This document shows positions 5,433-30,889 of a DNA stretch of 64,000 bases, piece by piece. The DNA comes from Fretibacterium sp. OH1220_COT-178 (GTDB lineage: Bacteria; Synergistota; Synergistia; Synergistales; Aminobacteriaceae). The notes beneath the pieces are model-generated. The model did no database searches and was not told the DNA's origin. It was given only the letters and a program-made list of their open reading frames with translations. The stretch lies in the NCBI RefSeq assembly GCF_003860125.1, contig NZ_RQYL01000004.1, forward strand, positions 62,001 to 126,000, given 5' to 3'. A program made the position numbers and the translations under genes. The first letter of the stretch is position 1. Each line of letters starts with the position of its first letter.

Positions 5433-6010
5433 TTCCGTAACCCGCCTTCCCTGTAACTCAAAATGATCCTCCTGAGGCCCTCGGAGGCCCGGTCCAGATC
5501 GTCGTTCATCAACACATGATCGTATTTCTCGGCCTGCTGCAGCTCTCGTTTGGCGCTCTCCAGACGGGAGCGAAGCTCCGACTCCGTCTCCGTGTGCCGT
5601 CCCCGGAGCCGCCGCTCCAACTCCGCCTCGGAGGGGGGAAGGACAAAGATCATTACGGAATCGGGAACGAGGGAACGGACCTGAAGCGCACCCTGCACAT
5701 CGATCTCCAAGAGAACGTCGTGCCCGGCATCCAGCTCACGCTCGACATCCTCCCGGAGCGTTCCGTAACGGGGCCCCCCATGCACCCGAGCGTGTTCCAG
5801 AAACAGCCCCTGTTCCGCCATCCGCGTAAACTCGTCCTCGGAGACGAAGCGGTAATCCACCCCTTCGCGATCCTCGGGACGAGGAGAGCGCGTTGTGCAG
5901 GAGACGGAATAGGCCAGTCCCTCGATGCCCTTCAGGGCCTGGGTCCGAAGCGTTCCCTTGCCCACGCCGCTGGGACCGGAGAGCACGAACAGCCTTCCTC
6001 TGTGTCTCAT
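5429..6010 (-). CDS. gmk: guanylate kinase
   Basis: A 193-residue nucleotide kinase converting GMP to GDP. The P-loop GPSGVGKGTL is at about residues 12-21, followed by the GMP-binding region SVSCTTRSPRPEDREGVDY and the LLEIDVQGA segment. Full length for the family. It starts 21 bases after the yicC stop and overlaps rpoZ by the ATGA motif. Confidence 0.95.
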   Translation of the reverse strand: MRHRGRLFVLSGPSGVGKGTLRTQALKGIEGLAYSVSCTTRSPRPEDREGVDYRFVSEDEFTRMAEQGLFLEHARVHGGPRYGTLREDVERELDAGHDVLLEIDVQGALQVRSLVPDSVMIFVLPPSEAELERRLRGRHTETESELRSRLESAKRELQQAEKYDHVLMNDDLDRASEGLRRIILSYREGGLRK

Positions 6011-6031
6011 AGACCATGACCTTCCATTCCG

Positions 6032-6913
6032 TCACTCCACGTTCTGAATCTGCTCGCGGATCCTTTCGAGGCAGGATTTTGCCTCGACGACCCCCCACCG
6101 AAACTCCGCGTCGCCGACCTTGGAGCCCATCGTGTTGACCTCTCGGTTCATCTCCTGAATCAAAAAGTCCAGCTTGCGCCCCTCGGAGATGTTGCCGTTG
6201 GCCGTCTGCCTGAATTTGGAGATATGGGCGGCCAATCGGGCCAGCTCCTCCGTAACGTCCCAACGGTCGGACAGAAGGGAGACCTCCTGGGCAACACGGG
6301 ACTCGTCCAGATCGAGGCCAAAACGCTCCGTCACCTTTTCGATCCGTGTCCTGAGGTTCTCCAGAGCTTCGGCGGAGGAGCTCTTCCATCGCTCGGCCAG
6401 AAGCGCCGTCACCCCTTCGAAGTTCCTCAGGTCCTCCTCGACCACCGCCAGCAGCTTCGATCCCTCGGAGCGCTTCATCTCCATGAGCGACAGTACGGCC
6501 TCCTTCAGCAGGCCGTCCCATACCTCGGGGTCTAGATCGGCCCCCTCCGCAAAGCGGGGGGTATCACAGATCCCCGGCAGGGAAAGGAATGCGGTCAGGC
6601 CGGATGGAGCTTCGAGTCCGCGCTCCTTGGACAGGGCTTCGATCCTCTCGAAACAGAACAGAAGCGCCTCCTCGTCCAGAACCGGATTCTTGGCCCCCGG
6701 ATTCCAGGCTATCTCCGCAGAGAGGCGAACCTTCCCCCGTCTCACGAGAGAGCGCAGGGAGGAAAGCATGCGGCTCTCCAAGGATGCGAGTTCGCGGGGC
6801 AGACGTACCGAAAAATCCTGATAGCGATGGTTGACCGACGTCAACTCGAAGGTCACGGCCCCCCAGGAAAATTCCCGGGTCGCACGGCCGAACCCCGTCA
6901 TACTTAAAAACAT
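6032..6913 (-). CDS. YicC-family endoribonuclease
   Basis: A 293-residue protein with the family N terminus MTGFGRATRE, the internal NHRYQDFSVRLPREL segment, and the conserved C terminus with DFLIQEMNREVNT and EAKSCLERIREQIQNVE. YicC proteins are reported endoribonucleases; the physiological target in this organism is unknown. The ATG at 6911-6913 is preceded by AGGAGGCTGGA; the open frame continues upstream without start support. First gene of the gmk-rpoZ-coaBC run. The 157 bases upstream contain no convincing promoter, so it may be read with hflX. Confidence 0.88.
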   Translation of the reverse strand: MFLSMTGFGRATREFSWGAVTFELTSVNHRYQDFSVRLPRELASLESRMLSSLRSLVRRGKVRLSAEIAWNPGAKNPVLDEEALLFCFERIEALSKERGLEAPSGLTAFLSLPGICDTPRFAEGADLDPEVWDGLLKEAVLSLMEMKRSEGSKLLAVVEEDLRNFEGVTALLAERWKSSSAEALENLRTRIEKVTERFGLDLDESRVAQEVSLLSDRWDVTEELARLAAHISKFRQTANGNISEGRKLDFLIQEMNREVNTMGSKVGDAEFRWGVVEAKSCLERIREQIQNVE

Positions 6914-7070
6914 TCCAGCCTCCTCAATCGATCTATCCCGGACGGAGTGCCCAACACCAAAATTCCGTCCCCGTCTTGCGCCTCCGCGCAAGCCAAGGCC
7001 GGCCCAATATTCCGGAGTTCCGTGTCGCCCGCTCCCTGCTCCGCCCTGAAGGGAGCTCAAAATCCTCGTA

Positions 7071-8252
7071 TCAGCGCTCGGGAAAGGTCAGCGCATCGAA
7101 CGAGGCCGGACGGGTAAACCACTCGTTGCGAGAGGCCAGCATCCGCTCCACGGACTTCAGGAGCTCCCGCAGTCCTTCGCCATGAAGAGCGCTCACTCCG
7201 GCAACATCCTCGCCCTTGGCCCTCAGCCACAGGGCAAGGGATTCGGCGTCCTCCGGCGAAACGGCGTCCAGCTTGTTGAGGACCAAAATACGAGGTATTG
7301 CCTCGCATCCTATATCCGTCAAAGTATCCACGATCACCTCATAGGTCGCCATCGCCTCGGGATCGGAGGCATCCAGCAACATCAACAGGAGCTCCGCCTC
7401 GCGGACTTCCTCGAGAGTGGCCCGGAAAGCGGCCACGAGGGCGGGCGGCAGGTTTCGGATAAATCCCACGGTGTCCGAGAACAACACCGCGCCTCCCCCC
7501 GGAAGGACGATACGCCGCACCGACGTGTCGAGGGTCGAGAAAAGCCGGTCCTCGGCGAGAATTGAGACATCCCCGGAAAGCGTCCGCAACAACGTCGACT
7601 TTCCGCTGTTCGTGTATCCAACCAAGGAGATGGTCGGAATCCCCCGTTTGCGCCGTCGGTCCCGAACGAGCCGGCGCTGCCTCCGGACGTTCTCAAGTTT
7701 CCTCGTGATCTCCCGAACCCGCCGTTCCAGCCGACGTCGGTGGCGTTCGAACTCCGTCTCTCCCGGGCCCCGGGTACCGATTCCCGCGCCTGTCCGCGAC
7801 ATCTGGAGCCCCAGCCCTTTGAGATGCGGGATCTCGTAGCGGGTCAGGGCCAACTCGACCTGCAAGCGGGCCTCCGCCGTAACCGCTCGCCGTTCGAAGA
7901 TCTTCATGATGACGAACGGGCGGTCCCAAACCGTAGCGCCCGTGAGTTTCTCCAGATTGCTCTTCTGGATGGGAGAGAGCCGCTCGTCGACCACGACGTA
8001 ACGGGCCCCGCGCGCAAGACAAAAGAGACGCACATCCTCCGCCTTTCCCCTGCCGATCAGACAGGCGGGGTCGGGCTTGTCCCGACGCTGCATGACACTT
8101 CCCACCGACTCGATGCCCAGGGAAGCCAAAAGCAACCTGAGCTCCTCCAGCAACACCTCGGGGGAATCCTCCCGATCCGGAAGCGAAAGCCCGACCAAAA
8201 TCGCTCCTGAGCGCAGGGGTCCCTCCCTCCGCTCAGGGCGCCGACGACTCAA
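7071..8252 (-). CDS. hflX: GTPase HflX
   Basis: A 393-residue ribosome-associated GTPase. The N-terminal HflX domain contains LIGRGKAEDV and VVVDERLSPIQKSNLE; the linker has the signature GTRGPGETEFERHRR; the G domain has P-loop GYTNSGKSTL, DTVGFIRNLPPALVAAF and the NKLD base-recognition motif. HflX splits or rescues stalled 70S ribosomes in several bacteria. I use the TTG at 8250-8252, which overlaps the plsC end by 20 bases. A TTG about 45 bases downstream with AGGAG ahead of it is an alternative. Confidence 0.92.
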   Translation of the reverse strand: MSRRRPERREGPLRSGAILVGLSLPDREDSPEVLLEELRLLLASLGIESVGSVMQRRDKPDPACLIGRGKAEDVRLFCLARGARYVVVDERLSPIQKSNLEKLTGATVWDRPFVIMKIFERRAVTAEARLQVELALTRYEIPHLKGLGLQMSRTGAGIGTRGPGETEFERHRRRLERRVREITRKLENVRRQRRLVRDRRRKRGIPTISLVGYTNSGKSTLLRTLSGDVSILAEDRLFSTLDTSVRRIVLPGGGAVLFSDTVGFIRNLPPALVAAFRATLEEVREAELLLMLLDASDPEAMATYEVIVDTLTDIGCEAIPRILVLNKLDAVSPEDAESLALWLRAKGEDVAGVSALHGEGLRELLKSVERMLASRNEWFTRPASFDALTFPER

Positions 8253-24426: not shown

Positions 24427-26419
24427 AGCCCCGTTTTCCTCCGTATCCGTCCCAATTTCCCCGACGTTCCTCCCCTCCGCGGTCGTCCAGATTTTTGTAC
24501 GCGTCGGGGATCTCAAACAGGAAGCGGGAGAACCCTTTGTCGAGCGTCGTCCCATAAAGACGCCGGCTGCGGGCCGCAGTGAGGTAGAGGCGTTCCTCCG
24601 CCCGTGTCATCCCCACATAACAGAGCCGGCGCTCCTCCTCCATTTGAGAGGGGTCGTCCTTCGCCCGCGAGTTCGGGAAGACGTCCTCTTCGAGCCCCAC
24701 GAGGAACACGACGGGAAACTCCAAGCCCTTGGCCGCATGCAGCGTCAGCAGGCCGACGGAGCGACGGTCGTCGGGATCCTGAGCGTCCGCGTCCGTAAAA
24801 AGGGCCGCCTCGGCCAGGGATTCGGCAAGGTCTCCCTCGGGGACGACGGAGCGGAGTTCCATGACGTTGTCGATGCGGTCCTCCCAATCCTCCGGATTCT
24901 TCTCCCTCAGAAAATCCTCGTAGCCCATGTGGTTCAGCACGTAATCGACCGCGGCCCCCACGCCGCGCTCTGCGGCCCTCAGAAGTCCTGCCATCTGTCG
25001 GCCGAATAGGGCGACCGCCCCTCCGACCTGTCCTTTGACCGGAAAAATCCCCTCACCCACCGCACGCCAGAAATCCCCGGCCGGCGAGGCGGGCACCGCA
25101 CCCGAGGCCTGCCACCCGGACCATTCCTCCCGTTTCTTCGGCCCCATGCCCTTGATCGCAAAAGCGGCCACACGCTCGAAGGAGGTCCTGTCGTCCGGGT
25201 TCACGGCCAGTTTCAGGACCGCGAGGACATCCCGGACCTCCTTACGCTCGTAAAAAGCCGTTCCCCGGACAATTCTATAAGGGATTGCCGCCTCCAGCAG
25301 CTTTTGTTCGTACAGGCGGCTCATGGTGTTCTGACGGTACAGAATGGCCATATCGCCGTAGTCGTAGCCATGATTCACCTTCAAACGTCCGATCTCCGCG
25401 GTGATGAAGCTCGCCTCCTGAAGATCGCTGTTTGCGAGCAGGGTATGGACCTTCTCCCCCTGCCCCCGTGCGGTCTTGAGCTCCTTCTCCTTTCGTGCGG
25501 AGTTGTTGCGGATCAGGGCGTTCGAGGCACCCAAAATATTGCCCGTCGAACGGTAGTTCTCGTCCAGAATGATGGTGTGGGCGTCTTTTTGCCCCGCCAT
25601 CCCCTTGAAATCCCGCTCGAAGTTCAGGATCATCCCGATATCCGCGCCGCGCCAGCCGTAGATGGACTGATCCGGATCGCCAACCACGTTCAGCCGGCAG
25701 TCCGGTCCCACGAGGTAGCGGAGCAGCAAGTACTGAGGCCGGTTGACGTCCTGATACTCGTCCACCAAGAGCCAGCGGATCCGCTCCCGCTCCGAGCGTT
25801 TCACCCCCTCGTCCGCAGCGAGGATCTGCAGGGGAACGATCATCAGGTCGTCGAAATCCACCGCTCCCCGGTTTCTCAGCTCCCTGCGGTACTCGTGGGC
25901 GACGTCCAGGTACAGGCCCTCCAGAAGGGGCTCCCGGCTCCCCGGCGACCAGGCCGCCCGATCCCTGGATATGGCGTCGAGAACCGAGGCGGGTTCGATA
26001 TCCTTGGTGTTGACCCCCATCCGCTCCAGGATCTGTTTGACCAGGGCACGGCTGTCCCCGCGATCGAAGACGGCGAAGCCCGGCTTTACCCCCGCCTGGG
26101 CCTCGGCGGCCTCCCGGTTCCGGAACAGAAACTTCAGGCCGAAGGCGTGAAAGGTGCTGACGCGCACCTCCTCCGCCCCGGAGGAGACCAAGGCCGAGAC
26201 GCGCTCGCGCATCTCCCCGGCGGCCTTGTTCGTAAACGTCATTGCCGTGATCTCCCAGGGCTTTGCCAGCCCCTCCGCAATCAGCCAGGCGACCTTGTGG
26301 GTCAGGACCCTTGTCTTCCCGCTGCCCGCCCCGGCCAGGATCAAAAGCGGCCCGTCTACATACGTCACGGCCTCTCGTTGCCTGGGCGAGAGGCGTTCCA
26401 GAATGTCCTTGTCCGACAT
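24380..26419 (-). CDS. UvrD/PcrA-type ATP-dependent DNA helicase
   Basis: A 679-residue superfamily 1A helicase. In order: Q motif LSPRQREAVTYVDGPLL, Walker A GAGSGKTRVL, motif Ia TNKAAGEMRERV, VSTFHAFG, Walker B LLVDEYQDVN, GDPDQSIYGWRGAD, the DENYRSTGNIL block, LTLHAAKGLEFPVVFLVG and EERRLCYVGMTRAEERLYL. It acts in nucleotide excision and mismatch repair or replication-fork clearance. The C-terminal tail (GGKRGYGSYGTGHYRGRRG) is glycine-arginine rich. The ATG has GAAGAGG upstream. First gene of a run with coaE and DHH-PAP. Confidence 0.93.
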   Translation of the reverse strand: MSDKDILERLSPRQREAVTYVDGPLLILAGAGSGKTRVLTHKVAWLIAEGLAKPWEITAMTFTNKAAGEMRERVSALVSSGAEEVRVSTFHAFGLKFLFRNREAAEAQAGVKPGFAVFDRGDSRALVKQILERMGVNTKDIEPASVLDAISRDRAAWSPGSREPLLEGLYLDVAHEYRRELRNRGAVDFDDLMIVPLQILAADEGVKRSERERIRWLLVDEYQDVNRPQYLLLRYLVGPDCRLNVVGDPDQSIYGWRGADIGMILNFERDFKGMAGQKDAHTIILDENYRSTGNILGASNALIRNNSARKEKELKTARGQGEKVHTLLANSDLQEASFITAEIGRLKVNHGYDYGDMAILYRQNTMSRLYEQKLLEAAIPYRIVRGTAFYERKEVRDVLAVLKLAVNPDDRTSFERVAAFAIKGMGPKKREEWSGWQASGAVPASPAGDFWRAVGEGIFPVKGQVGGAVALFGRQMAGLLRAAERGVGAAVDYVLNHMGYEDFLREKNPEDWEDRIDNVMELRSVVPEGDLAESLAEAALFTDADAQDPDDRRSVGLLTLHAAKGLEFPVVFLVGLEEDVFPNSRAKDDPSQMEEERRLCYVGMTRAEERLYLTAARSRRLYGTTLDKGFSRFLFEIPDAYKNLDDRGGEERRGNWDGYGGKRGYGSYGTGHYRGRRGW

Positions 26420-26454
26420 ATCCTCTTCTCCTTAACTATCAATCCTCGAACCCG

Positions 26455-26826
26455 TCAAAGATCCTCCTCCGGGCTTGTTCCGCCGCCTTCCACCTCCATG
26501 GAGTCGATGGACAACTCGAGCCCGGACAGGAGCTCCACATCCGGGCTGCCGCACCTGGGACAGACGAAGGCCGTACTTTCGCTGCCGGTGTCTCGGCCAC
26601 AGGCCCTGCACCGAAAGACGATCGGCAGGGACAAAATCGACAGTTCCGCCCCTTCCGTGGCGGTCCCCCTGGAGACCACGGAAAAAGCGAAGGCCACGAG
26701 CTCGGGGTTGGCCCTTCTCAGACCACCGACCTTCAACACGATACGGCGAACGCGGGTCCAGCCCGCCCGCTCGCAAAGGCCAAGAATGGCGTTGTTCACG
26801 GACTCCGTCAAGGCCAGCTCGTGCAA
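26455..26826 (-). CDS. hypA: HypA-like nickel metallochaperone
   Basis: A 123-residue protein with the essential MHELALTESV N terminus (His2 is the nickel ligand in the family) and the zinc site CRAC...CPRC (about residues 73-95). HypA delivers nickel during [NiFe]-hydrogenase maturation. The start is a TTG (26824-26826). No hydrogenase or hypBCDF gene is nearby; only a HypE-like protein 27 kb away. The C-terminal tail is acidic. Confidence 0.86.
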   Translation of the reverse strand: MHELALTESVNNAILGLCERAGWTRVRRIVLKVGGLRRANPELVAFAFSVVSRGTATEGAELSILSLPIVFRCRACGRDTGSESTAFVCPRCGSPDVELLSGLELSIDSMEVEGGGTSPEEDL

Positions 26827-26847
26827 AACGGCATCCCCTTCCGCGCG

Positions 26848-27816
26848 CTACGAAGGACTCTGGGCGGCCAGGGCCGACAGGGCTCCGATGAAGCGCTCCG
26901 TCGTCTCGGAGTCGAAATCCAGGCCCTTCCGGGCTCTCAGCAACTGAAGAAGGATCTGCTCCGAGGCGGTGTCCAGATCCCGCAGATCCCCCAGGGAGGA
27001 GAGGTAATCGGCTATCATGATAGCCAGCCTCAGAATGGAGCTACCCAGCGGAGTCCTTCGGGACTCGTCCTTCGGATCGAAGGGTTTGCGGTGAAAGCGG
27101 ATGATATCGGCAATCCCCCGCATCCGCTCGATCCTGGCCAGCAACCTGGCGGACTGGATGGAGTAGTCCTCGAACTCGTGGAGGTCCGGATCGGAGGATT
27201 CCTTGAGCCGCTCCTGGTAGATCGAGATCTTCCCGAGGTTATGCAGGAGCCCCGCCGCCCGCAACTCCCGCAGCGCGCCCTCGGTAAGCCCCATCGCCTT
27301 GCCTATCTGTAGCGCGATGGAGGCGATCTGTTCGTTCCTGCTGGCAATCTCGGACTCCTGGGCGAGCAGAATCTCGTAGAACATCTCGACCATGGCGTCA
27401 AAATCGTGCTCCAGCCTGCGCTCCAATTCCACCTCCTCGGTACGGTCGAAGAGAATTTCCATAAAGAGCCCCGTATTCCGGCCATCTGCATCGAGAAGGG
27501 GAAAATCGACGATAGAGCTGTAGAGGACCGAACCGAAGCGCGGCGCCGTTGCCAAGGGCCTCTGGACCTCTTCCATCGTCTCCCGACATTGATCGAGCAT
27601 GCAGTCCGGACAAGGGCCGCCGTAGCCGAAAAGCTCGTAGCACTTTTCGGGGAGAGGCCCGCACTCCCTCCGTCCCAGGGCGGACTTCAGGATCCCATTG
27701 ACGTGGACCAAGTCCCTGTTCCCCCTGACGACGAGGTAGTTTAATGGGACGTTTTCCATGATCATCCGGACATATTCGTGCTGTACGACCCGAGAAAAGG
27801 GCAGAGGACGGCGCAT
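26848..27816 (-). CDS. PAS-HD signalling protein with a degenerate HD motif
   Basis: A 322-residue protein: N-terminal PAS domain (about 15-140) carrying a cysteine cluster (Cys 52, 59, 69, 72, 77, including PCPDC), then an HD-GYP-like domain. The HD pair is changed to HN (AAGLLHNLGKI) and the HHE...GYP signature is replaced by RFHRKPFDPKD, so cyclic-di-GMP hydrolysis is unlikely, although a later Asp (IADYLSSL) remains. The ATG at 27814-27816, with GGAGG upstream, comes one base after the stop of the related upstream gene, so the two are co-translated. Probably a diverged paralogue acting as a regulator or partner of the active-looking neighbour. Ligand unknown. Confidence 0.75.
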   Translation of the reverse strand: MRRPLPFSRVVQHEYVRMIMENVPLNYLVVRGNRDLVHVNGILKSALGRRECGPLPEKCYELFGYGGPCPDCMLDQCRETMEEVQRPLATAPRFGSVLYSSIVDFPLLDADGRNTGLFMEILFDRTEEVELERRLEHDFDAMVEMFYEILLAQESEIASRNEQIASIALQIGKAMGLTEGALRELRAAGLLHNLGKISIYQERLKESSDPDLHEFEDYSIQSARLLARIERMRGIADIIRFHRKPFDPKDESRRTPLGSSILRLAIMIADYLSSLGDLRDLDTASEQILLQLLRARKGLDFDSETTERFIGALSALAAQSPS

Positions 27817-27817
27817 T

Positions 27818-28810
27818 TCACCAGCCTCCGGCGTCGGACAGCTCTTCCGTGTCCAGAAGCTCCAGCATGGCTTGAGCGATTCGAGGATCGAATTGGCCTC
27901 CGGATCCCCTGAGGAACTCCGCCTTGATGTATTCTCGATCCCGGGCATCCTTGTAGGATCGACGCGAAGCCATGGCGTGAAAGGCATCGGCCGCCGAGAT
28001 GATGCGAGCCTCCCAGAGGATGTCCTCGCCCTTCAGACCGTCCGGGTAACCCTTTCCATCATAGCGCTCATGGTGCGAACGTATGATGGGGCCGATGTCG
28101 CGAAAACGGTCGAGCCTGGCGACCATCTCCGCGCCACGTGGCGAATGGACCTTGATGATCTCAAATTCCTCGTCCGTCAATCGGCCGGGTTTGTTGAGGA
28201 TATCCCAGGGGACCCCCACCTTTCCAATGTCGTGGAGCATTCCCGCGACCTCCATCCGGAACTCCTCTTCCCTGGGCATACCCAGTTTTCGAGCCAGAGC
28301 CAGGCTGACGTCGCGCACACAGCGGGAATGCCTTGCCGTGTAGGCGTCCTTGGAGTCCAGGAGCTGGGCCAAAATGTCGATCAGGGAGAGAAAATCCTGT
28401 TCCAGGCGGTCCCGATACTCCAGGATGCGGGTCTTGTCCACCAGGAATTCGATCACTTTCTCGACCCGCCCGTTCTTTTTTACAGGAACGTCATGAATCT
28501 CCAGCACGACGGCGGAGCCGTCCTTGCGGGTCTGTCGCCGCATGGAGACCACCTTCTCCCCGCTCTCGAAGACCTTCGCCATCATGCAGCCGGGGCAGGG
28601 TCTGTCCTTGCCCGTCAGCTCGAAACAACGCTTCGAACAAATCTCGTCCTTCGAAAACGCCAATGTGCTGGCCAACCGATCATTGACATAGTGCACGTTG
28701 TAATTCCGGTCCAGCAGAGCGATGCTCGTCGGGGTCCGTTCTCCCATCAGCTGCAGCAGTTTTTCCCCCGCTATTTTCTCGAAGTCGAGGTTGAAAACAG
28801 AATCCGTCAT
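27818..28810 (-). CDS. PAS-HD-GYP cyclic-di-GMP phosphodiesterase
   Basis: A 330-residue protein with an N-terminal PAS domain (about 20-130) and a C-terminal HD-GYP domain with intact signatures: AGMLHDIGKVGVPWDIL, HHERYDGKGYPDGLKG and ISAADAFHAM. HD-GYP enzymes hydrolyse cyclic-di-GMP. The PAS domain carries Cys 58, 62, 72 and 75 in the pattern C-x3-C-x9-C-x2-C (including PCPGC), possibly a metal or redox site; that is inference. An ATG at 28808-28810 is directly preceded by a GTG. No membrane segment, so it senses a cytoplasmic signal. Confidence 0.87.
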   Translation of the reverse strand: MTDSVFNLDFEKIAGEKLLQLMGERTPTSIALLDRNYNVHYVNDRLASTLAFSKDEICSKRCFELTGKDRPCPGCMMAKVFESGEKVVSMRRQTRKDGSAVVLEIHDVPVKKNGRVEKVIEFLVDKTRILEYRDRLEQDFLSLIDILAQLLDSKDAYTARHSRCVRDVSLALARKLGMPREEEFRMEVAGMLHDIGKVGVPWDILNKPGRLTDEEFEIIKVHSPRGAEMVARLDRFRDIGPIIRSHHERYDGKGYPDGLKGEDILWEARIISAADAFHAMASRRSYKDARDREYIKAEFLRGSGGQFDPRIAQAMLELLDTEELSDAGGW

Positions 28811-28885
28811 CACCTCAGATCGTCCTCTCCGTCACGCTTCCCCACCCCTCGGCACCCCAGACAGCCGCACGCAAAAATTCATCCT

Positions 28886-30889
28886 CTAGGCGGGCGTGCC
28901 GAGGTTCTCGAGACGAAGGGACAGCTCCTCCCATCGTCTGTAGGCCCCCTCGAGCCCACGCTCGATCGTGTTCCGCTCCACCATGAGTTCCCGCACCCGT
29001 CCGGAGTCCGCGAGCACCTCGGCATCGCTCAACGCGGCATCGATTTCGTCTCTCCGTGTCTCCATGTCCTCGATACGCCCCTCCAAAGGGGTCAGCTCCT
29101 TCCGGATTTCGCGCCGCTCCCGATCGAGACGTTCCCGTTCTTCGGCAGCCTGCCGACGGATGGAACGCGTACTTCGCCCAAAGCGGATATTCTCCGTCGC
29201 CCCCTCGCAGCCACCGCCCAAAAGCGCCTCCCGTCTCTCCAAAAACCAGGAGTAGTTGCCGGGATAATCGTAGACCCGTCCGTCGCGGATCTCTAGCACC
29301 CGCTCCGCCAACGCGTCCAAGAAGTGGCGGTCGTGGGAGACGATGAGGAGGGTCCCTCCGTACTGCAGCAACGCGTTCTGCACGAGCTCCTTGGTGCTCC
29401 GGTCGAGGTGGTTGGTCGGCTCGTCCAGGATCAGAAAATTGGTCTCCGCCAACATGAGCTTGAACAGGGCCAGACGCGCTTTCTCCCCTCCCGACAGCAC
29501 GGAGACGGATTTATGGATGTCCGAGCCGGAGAACAGGAACGCGCCCAACAGGCTGCGGCGGCTGACATCGTTCAGGATCGACGGGGCCGATCGGGCCTCC
29601 TCCCAGATCGTGTGAGAGTAGTTCACATTCTGGGCGCTCTCCTGGGAATAGAAGGCCCGTCTCACATTGTGCCCCAGACGCACGGTACCGGACGTCGGAG
29701 CCTCCACCCCGCTCAACAGCCGGAGCAGCGTGGACTTGCCCGCGCCGTTGACGCCCACGAGGGCGACGCGCTCTCCGCGATTGACGGTAAAATCGAGCCC
29801 CTCAAACACCCGATTCTCCCCGTAGCTCTTGGAGAGCCCCCGGACCCCCAGGACCTCCCAGCCGCTGTCCGGGGCCTCCGGAATGCGAAAACGGACACCC
29901 TTTTCGGGCCCGTCGATCACGATCGCATCCATCTTTTCGAGCTGTTTCAGACGGCTCTGAACCTGGGCGGCCTTGGAGGACTTGTAGCGAAAACGGTTGA
30001 CGAACCGTTCGATTTCCTCCACGCGACGCCTCTGTTCCTCGGCCGTGCGCTCCAGCCGCTCACGAGCGCACTCCTTCTCGACCAAATACCGGTCGTAGCC
30101 ACAGGGATAGAGCGTCAGATGCCCGTGCTCGAGCTCCGCGATCTGCTCGGTCATGTTCTCCAGAAACCGGCGGTCGTGCGACACGGCGACGATGGCCCCC
30201 TTGTGGGCGCGCAGCCACCCCTCCAGCCATTCCATGCTCTCGGTGTCCAGATGGTTCGTCGGCTCGTCAAGAAGCAGCACATCCGGGGCCGAAAGCAGCA
30301 GGGCCGCCATGGCGATGCGCATCTTCCACCCCCCGGAGAACTCCGAGCAATTCCGCTCCCCGTCCTCCCGGGCGAACCCCAGGCCGTGCAGGACTCTTGA
30401 GGCCGCCGCCTCGAACCCGAAGCCTCCCAGGTGCTCGAAGCGCCGTTCCAGGCGGGCGTGTTCCTCCAGAAGGCCGGCGAGATCGCGCGAGCCCTCGTTC
30501 GTGGCGGACAATGCAAGCTCCGTCTCTCGCAACCGCGCCTCCAGGCCGGCAACGCCCACCCGTTCCTTCAAAAGGTCTACGACAGGGATGGATTCCAGCT
30601 CCACGAGGTCCTGAGGCAGATAGCCGACCCGCAGTCCCTTGGAGCGTTCGACTTTGCCTCCGTCCGGCTCGACTTCCCCCGCCAGGATACGAAGCAGGGT
30701 AGTCTTGCCCGCCCCGTTGTTCCCGACAAGCCCCATGCGGGCGCGTTCCCCGATCAGGCAGCCGACATCGTCGAAGATCACCTTCTCCCCGAAAGACAGT
30801 CGAAGTCCCTTGATGTCGATCAGACAAATCCCTCCCGTGTTCTCTTTGAGCCAAACCCCAGAAGTATATACCAACCGAGAGGAGCTCAA
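28886..30889 (-). CDS. ABC-F family ATPase (translation factor type)
   Basis: A protein of about 645-667 residues with two ABC domains and no membrane part. Domain 1: Walker A GNNGAGKTT, signature FSGGWKMR, LLLDEPTNHLD. Domain 2: Walker A GVNGAGKST, signature LSGGEKAR, LILDEPTNHLD. The arginine-rich linker between them and a C-terminal coiled coil (about 560-665) fit ABC-F proteins that act on the ribosome. The start is uncertain: the TTG at 30887-30889 has no ribosome-binding site and lies upstream of a likely -10 element, whereas homology begins at about 30823, where a CTG follows GGGAGGG. A resistance role cannot be told from sequence. Confidence 0.88.
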   Translation of the reverse strand: MSSSRLVYTSGVWLKENTGGICLIDIKGLRLSFGEKVIFDDVGCLIGERARMGLVGNNGAGKTTLLRILAGEVEPDGGKVERSKGLRVGYLPQDLVELESIPVVDLLKERVGVAGLEARLRETELALSATNEGSRDLAGLLEEHARLERRFEHLGGFGFEAAASRVLHGLGFAREDGERNCSEFSGGWKMRIAMAALLLSAPDVLLLDEPTNHLDTESMEWLEGWLRAHKGAIVAVSHDRRFLENMTEQIAELEHGHLTLYPCGYDRYLVEKECARERLERTAEEQRRRVEEIERFVNRFRYKSSKAAQVQSRLKQLEKMDAIVIDGPEKGVRFRIPEAPDSGWEVLGVRGLSKSYGENRVFEGLDFTVNRGERVALVGVNGAGKSTLLRLLSGVEAPTSGTVRLGHNVRRAFYSQESAQNVNYSHTIWEEARSAPSILNDVSRRSLLGAFLFSGSDIHKSVSVLSGGEKARLALFKLMLAETNFLILDEPTNHLDRSTKELVQNALLQYGGTLLIVSHDRHFLDALAERVLEIRDGRVYDYPGNYSWFLERREALLGGGCEGATENIRFGRSTRSIRRQAAEERERLDRERREIRKELTPLEGRIEDMETRRDEIDAALSDAEVLADSGRVRELMVERNTIERGLEGAYRRWEELSLRLENLGTPA
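30863..30868 (-). promoter_or_regulatory. possible -10 element of the ABC-F gene
   Basis: Minus strand TATACT inside the AT-rich run TTGGTATATACT, with an extended TGG in one register; the -35 (TTTTGA at 17 bases) is weak. If used, transcription starts near 30856, downstream of the TTG start, which would force a CTG start at 30821-30823. Confidence 0.42.

Follow-up and report, generated by a model that had tools for sequence, protein, structure and literature searches.

A coupled pair of PAS-HD genes in a Fretibacterium genome, one product with a near-intact and the other with a degenerate HD-GYP domain

Introduction

In our judgement, degenerate proteins of the HD-GYP type have received much less study than those of the GGDEF or EAL type. 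HD-GYP domains without activity are nevertheless already represented by DvhD, PA2572, NosR and Bd1817, the last being a degenerate HD-GYP protein described in PMC4159591. Here we analyze a pair of adjacent genes, seen in one genome, whose upstream product, P0001, resembles an active HD-GYP enzyme and whose downstream product, P0002, appears to be degenerate. The pair lies in a stretch of 64,000 nucleotides from Fretibacterium sp. OH1220_COT-178, hereafter the window.

The cytoplasmic module of DvhD from Desulfovibrio vulgaris (PDB 9rc0, 9rbz; PMC13090378) consists, like P0002, of a PAS domain, a stalk and an HD-GYP domain, and it shares with P0002 the loss of the HD and HH ligands. DvhD shows no hydrolysis, and its dimerization is driven mainly by the stalk helices (PMC13090378). 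Unlike P0002, however, DvhD is a membrane receptor with a dCache domain, in which GYP and the c-di-GMP contacts are kept (PMC13090378); the excerpted text of that paper names no active paralog as its partner. PA2572 (YN-GYP) from Pseudomonas aeruginosa is an inactive HD-GYP variant, as P0002 probably is too, and its role is regulatory; in contrast to P0002, it has a REC sensor, lacks a cysteine PAS and, going by its name, keeps GYP (PMC3411652). NosR (HG-GTP) has a degenerate HD-GYP output domain, as P0002 does, but differs in its REC domain (PMC12570481). P0002 scores 82.9 bits against the NosR family NF053512 (NCBIfam), far below the 400-bit cut-off, and is thus not a member. PmGH from Persephonella marina (4mcw) has the fold and ligand set of P0001; unlike P0001, it has a GAF sensor, belongs to the E185 trinuclear subgroup and keeps the residues R192 and D308 (PMC4159591). 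By title or abstract, no active/dead pair of PAS HD-GYP proteins was found among the open-licence literature matches listed.

Results

The gene pair and its neighbors

Both genes and their neighbors on either side are encoded on the minus strand:

27818..28813, (-): P0001, PAS, stalk and HD-GYP protein, 331 aa, GTG start
26848..27816, (-): P0002, PAS-like region, stalk and degenerate HD domain (HN), 322 aa
26455..26826, (-): hypA, nickel metallochaperone (PF01155, 99.3 bits); context, outside the pair
28886..30889, (-): ABC-F type ATPase, upstream of P0001; context, outside the pair

The P0001 stop is at 27818 and the P0002 ATG, which is preceded by GGAGG, at 27816; a single base, 27817, separates the two. 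An alternative ATG for P0001 lies one codon inside its GTG start, at 28810. The distance from P0002 to hypA is 21 bp. A scan of 26300-29300 for promoters and terminators gave no match. Coordinates, strand and spacing thus bear out an earlier note on this DNA, which had described adjacent genes one base apart.

The resemblance between P0001 and P0002 is not due to chance. The two proteins are 27% identical over 248 aligned columns (BLASTP, E 6e-27), and they score 27 sd over shuffles in PAS plus stalk and 20 sd in PAS alone. When P0002 was used as query against its own genome, P0001 was the top non-self match (96 bits, along residues 5-305). The full-length match between the two reaches 103 bits, versus 58.5 bits for the next match, and residues 1-148 of P0002 score 146 against P0001, versus 64 or less against other sampled HD-GYP frames.

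Catalytic residues

To compare the catalytic residues, we aligned P0001, P0002, PmGH and DvhD with 80 distinct HD-GYP domains; these are mostly best matches to P0001 or P0002 rather than a random sample, and one of them is the other HD-GYP of the window genome. Both proteins exceed the Pfam HD_5 cut-off of 27.2 bits, P0001 with 127.6 bits and P0002 with 45.1 bits. The alignment places the following motifs:

28229..28234, (-): P0001 HD motif, His194-Asp195
28043..28075, (-): P0001 HHERYDGKGYP, residues 247-257
27238..27243, (-): P0002 HN replacing HD, His192-Asn193
27061..27093, (-): P0002 HRKPFDPKDES replacing HHExxDGxGYP, residues 242-252

P0001 carries all seven metal ligands common to both HD-GYP subgroups (HHDHHHD), and GYP is present. 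It has Y at the position of E185 (PmGH numbering), which would assign it to what PMC4159591 defines as the Y/F subgroup. In P0002 the same positions read RHNYHRD, so that four of the seven common ligands are lost, and GYP is replaced by DES; at the His250 position, the P0002 residue is Tyr218 in the multiple alignment and a Gln in the pairwise one. Of the comparison domains, 76/80 have 7/7 ligands and 4/80 have 6/7. In PmGH, mutants of the metal ligands are inactive, except for those of E185 and D305 (PMC4159591). The sequence of P0002 therefore offers good support for a catalytically dead, pseudo-HD-GYP domain. The earlier note had proposed just this for one copy, and its description of HN without GYP was correct, although it understated the loss.

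That note had also taken the upstream copy to be intact. This holds for HD, HHERYDGKGYP and the seven ligands, but not for the second shell. In PmGH, R192 and D308 are joined by a hydrogen bond, and the D308A mutant is impaired in activity (PMC4159591). This pair, which is not a strict criterion of the HD-GYP family, is absent in P0001, where the corresponding residues are Cys165 and His279. Position 308 is D in 39, E in 39, A in 1 and V in 1 of the 80 other domains, and His in none. Even the copy that looks active is thus unusual at the second shell, and because it carries R192C and D308H, its activity is not assured. The structural model of the P0001 HD-GYP part has a pLDDT mostly above 90, and it matches PmGH 4mcw (Foldseek E 8.7e-13), PA4781 4r8z and DvhD 9rbz. 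The P0002 model, with a mean pLDDT of 44.1, was set aside.

PAS domains and cysteine clusters

The earlier note had assigned PAS and HD domains to both proteins. HD_5 is found in both, as stated above, whereas Pfam PAS_9 and PAS_4 match P0001 only (PAS_9, 36.9 bits), and no Pfam PAS model matches P0002 at E up to 1. The PAS assignment of P0002 is thus made through its similarity to the P0001 PAS. The earlier note's claim of a common cysteine cluster ending in PCPxC proved correct: the motif C-[FY]-E-L-x-G-x3-P-C-P-x-C-M occurs in both proteins, within the clusters

28586..28639, (-): P0001 PAS cluster, Cys59-x3-Cys63-x9-Cys73-x2-Cys76
27586..27663, (-): P0002 PAS cluster, Cys52-x6-Cys59-x9-Cys69-x2-Cys72-x4-Cys77

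P0001 has cysteines 59, 63, 73 and 76, plus 165 outside the cluster. In P0002, a segment of 26 residues holds all five of the protein's cysteines; the random chance of five within 29 is 0.0002. Each protein has four clustered cysteines, of which three align exactly and the first is shifted. No other 15-column window is as well conserved between P0001 and P0002 as this stretch (9/15). In the structural model of P0001, the PAS part has a pLDDT below 60.

Sensing of redox state, a metal or a ligand by these cysteines is plausible. The cytoplasmic PAS of NreB from Staphylococcus, which holds a [4Fe-4S] cluster, likewise has four cysteines, but NreB is a histidine kinase, unlike P0001 and P0002 (PMC4601167). 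A profile of six cysteine-PAS domains found no solved structure of such a domain at E 0.01. The spacing in the pair, C-x3/6-C-x9-C-x2-C, differs from that of NreB, C-x2-C-x11-C-x2-C.

A cysteine-cluster PAS does not appear to be special to the pair, since the motif is predicted in signaling frames of three other genomes. A DNA pattern for the motif matched 13 places in 11/185 genomes of the phylum. Eleven of these places belong to genomes other than that of the window, and the frames of 8 were examined: four fall in long signaling frames (G048 twice, G005 and G169 once each), including ones that we labeled by eye as kinase-like and GGDEF-like, three lack the motif in frame, and the remaining one is in a frame of 85 aa. 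In viral contigs, a fixed-length version of the cysteine-motif pattern matched one locus; HD-GYP loci from viral contigs were used solely to deepen the P0001 alignment.

Stalks

The stalks of the two proteins are equal in length:

28328..28438, (-): P0001 stalk, D126 to H162, 36 residues apart
27337..27447, (-): P0002 stalk, D124 to R160, 36 residues apart

The distance from the D-x-T at the end of the PAS domain to the H189 position is thus 36 residues in both. The D-x-T motif was usable in 25/80 other domains, where the distance is 36 in one, 43 in ten, 50 in six and elsewhere in eight. In HD-GYP stalks of relatives, the length from PAS end to first metal ligand clusters at 36, 43 and 50, i.e., in heptad steps. 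Equal stalks would suit a parallel mixed coiled coil of P0001 and P0002.

Proposed mechanism

As the best explanation of these data, we propose that P0001 would act as a soluble phosphodiesterase on c-di-GMP, belonging to the Y/F subgroup, and that P0002 would be its diverged paralog, which would neither hold a metal centre nor hydrolyze c-di-GMP. The two proteins would be made together from the coupled genes and may associate in a mixed dimer through the PAS domains and the stalk helices, which are equal in length. P0002 would then tune P0001, with control presumably running in this direction, upon a change in state of the cysteine clusters, possibly the gain or loss of a bound Fe-S cluster or metal. 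Gene coupling, common architecture, equal stalks, ligand loss and cysteine retention can be read from the sequence, from which a heteromer seems plausible; the mechanism as a whole we hold tentatively, at somewhat less than an even chance.

We count in its favor the contrast of 7/7 ligands and GYP in P0001 versus RHNYHRD and DES in P0002; the best matches of P0002, namely P0001 at 96 bits versus 45 bits elsewhere in the phylum; the stalk distance of 36 in both proteins and the conserved cysteine window, together with the stalk-driven dimer of DvhD; and the c-di-GMP machinery in the genome. Because this genome has 9 GGDEF, 3 EAL, 3 HD_5 (P0001, P0002 and one other) and 2 weak PilZ matches, c-di-GMP signaling is expected to be present. 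Counted against it are the HD-domain tree, which does not join the pair, a kinase-like PAS that is as near to the PAS of P0001 as that of P0002 is, the lack of orthologs (all detailed below), and R192C/D308H.

Alternatively, P0002 may be a sensor derived from an enzyme that dimerizes with itself and targets some other protein, with P0001 independent and adjacency reflecting only tandem duplication. No activity has been detected for PA2572, which binds another protein, PA2573, through its REC domain (PMC3411652); for NosR, action by way of a different enzyme has been proposed (PMC12570481), and 27% identity leaves room for a new partner. However, a mixed dimer agrees better with the gene coupling, the identical stalk length and the cysteine motif that both proteins carry, and we regard independent homodimers as unlikely, though with a real chance of being correct. 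Quite unlikely, in our view, is an obligate asymmetric phosphodiesterase, in which catalytic P0001 would depend on a metal- and nucleotide-blind P0002 through Fe-S or metal PAS domains, and the re-wired site of P0001 (Cys165/His279) would be partner-dependent or partner-altered.

Whether dead partners regulate HD-GYP enzymes could be studied simply in a pair of this kind, in which a putatively active and a putatively dead protein are encoded by coupled genes and have the same sensor and stalks of equal length. The pair is also a candidate route by which redox state or a metal could influence c-di-GMP turnover.

Origin of the pair

The PAS domains, the stalks and the adjacency of the genes support the duplication suggested by the earlier note, while the HD-domain tree appears neither to back nor to reject it. 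In this tree, P0002 sits apart from P0001 on a very long branch (4.5 changes per column), and the two group together in 0% of 200 bootstrap trees, a result to be read with these long branches in mind; a sister relation is not rejected (p-AU 0.331, using 38/84 rows). If the two had instead been assembled independently as cysteine-PAS/HD genes and come to lie side by side without tandem duplication, this would account for the separation of the HD domains and for the P0001 PAS scoring about the same against a kinase-like PAS from L103 (52 bits) and against that of P0002 (49 bits). The 103-bit full-length match, the equal stalks and the p-AU value speak against separate assembly, to which we give a small probability. 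We lean to an old duplication, followed by fast evolution of P0002.

Nucleotide binding and retention of P0002

P0002 could in principle be a receptor that binds c-di-GMP without cutting it, as DvhD does: DvhD likewise joins PAS to a degenerate HD-GYP domain, with SQ for HD, and binds c-di-GMP metal-free (PMC13090378). We therefore compared the eight canonical-site contacts given in PMC13090378, the DvhD columns of our alignment agreeing with the residues named there. P0001 keeps 6/8, whereas P0002 keeps 1/8 (R279), with one conservative change (L275). The small number of kept contacts argues against P0002 being a receptor of the DvhD type, as does its loss of GYP, which is kept in DvhD; this reading is very improbable.

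It is just as improbable that P0002 is a decaying remnant without function: relatives lack the pair and the P0002 branch is very long, but the frame is open for 322 codons with a neighbor-like GC3 (0.79), the cysteine cluster is kept, and simulating neutral change in the gene for P0001 until 27% identity was reached gave at least one stop in 1000/1000 runs (mean 8.1 stops). Since neutral drift to this identity left 0/1000 frames stop-free, P0002 has most likely been retained as a protein. The earlier note had equated absence of the pair in neighbors with recent random decay; the absence was confirmed in the relatives compared, but recent random decay is unlikely.

Distribution and insertion site

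Conservation of the pair is contradicted, as among 185 genomes of the phylum it was found in this one only. No ortholog of either gene was found in the 184 others, where the top match to P0002 scored 45 bits and that to P0001 179 bits, both confined to the HD domain, and P0001 matches extending into the PAS part were at most 36% identical across the 185 genomes. Scans of genome contigs, with P0002 alone and with an alignment of the pair, and of plasmids, with P0002, returned only HD-domain matches.

The surroundings of hypA were compared in 38 regions from 37 relatives, some ending at contig ends. ABC-F adjoins hypA in 4/38 (G005, G010, G015 and G026). In three of these the junction is closed, with gaps between aligned ends of 81 bp (G005), 225 bp (G010) and 94 bp (G015). 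A match to P0002 was found in 0/38 regions; that of G030 has a partial HD-GYP match on the opposite strand. Because the junction is otherwise closed in three relatives and P0002 has no match in the 38 regions, the pair is best read as a lineage-restricted insert, rather than a conserved pair.

A comparison with phage families gave no match. Recent foreign DNA was considered and rejected, as GC3 is 0.74 in P0001 and 0.79 in P0002, versus 0.72-0.81 in pcrA, hypA, ABC-F, recX and recG. A specific link to hydrogenase maturation through hypA was likewise rejected, hypA with pcrA being present without the pair in relatives.

In G026, a 441-aa frame, TIR-like by eye, lies between ABC-F and hypA (L175, about 5980-7302, + strand); with the PAS-HD pair in the window, the junction may be a repeated insertion point. 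HD_5 matches number just 3 in the window genome, at least 20 in some relatives, and none in several. Related genomes also contain HD-GYP frames with one in-frame TAG, possibly pseudogenes (L057 in G055, L058 in G047).
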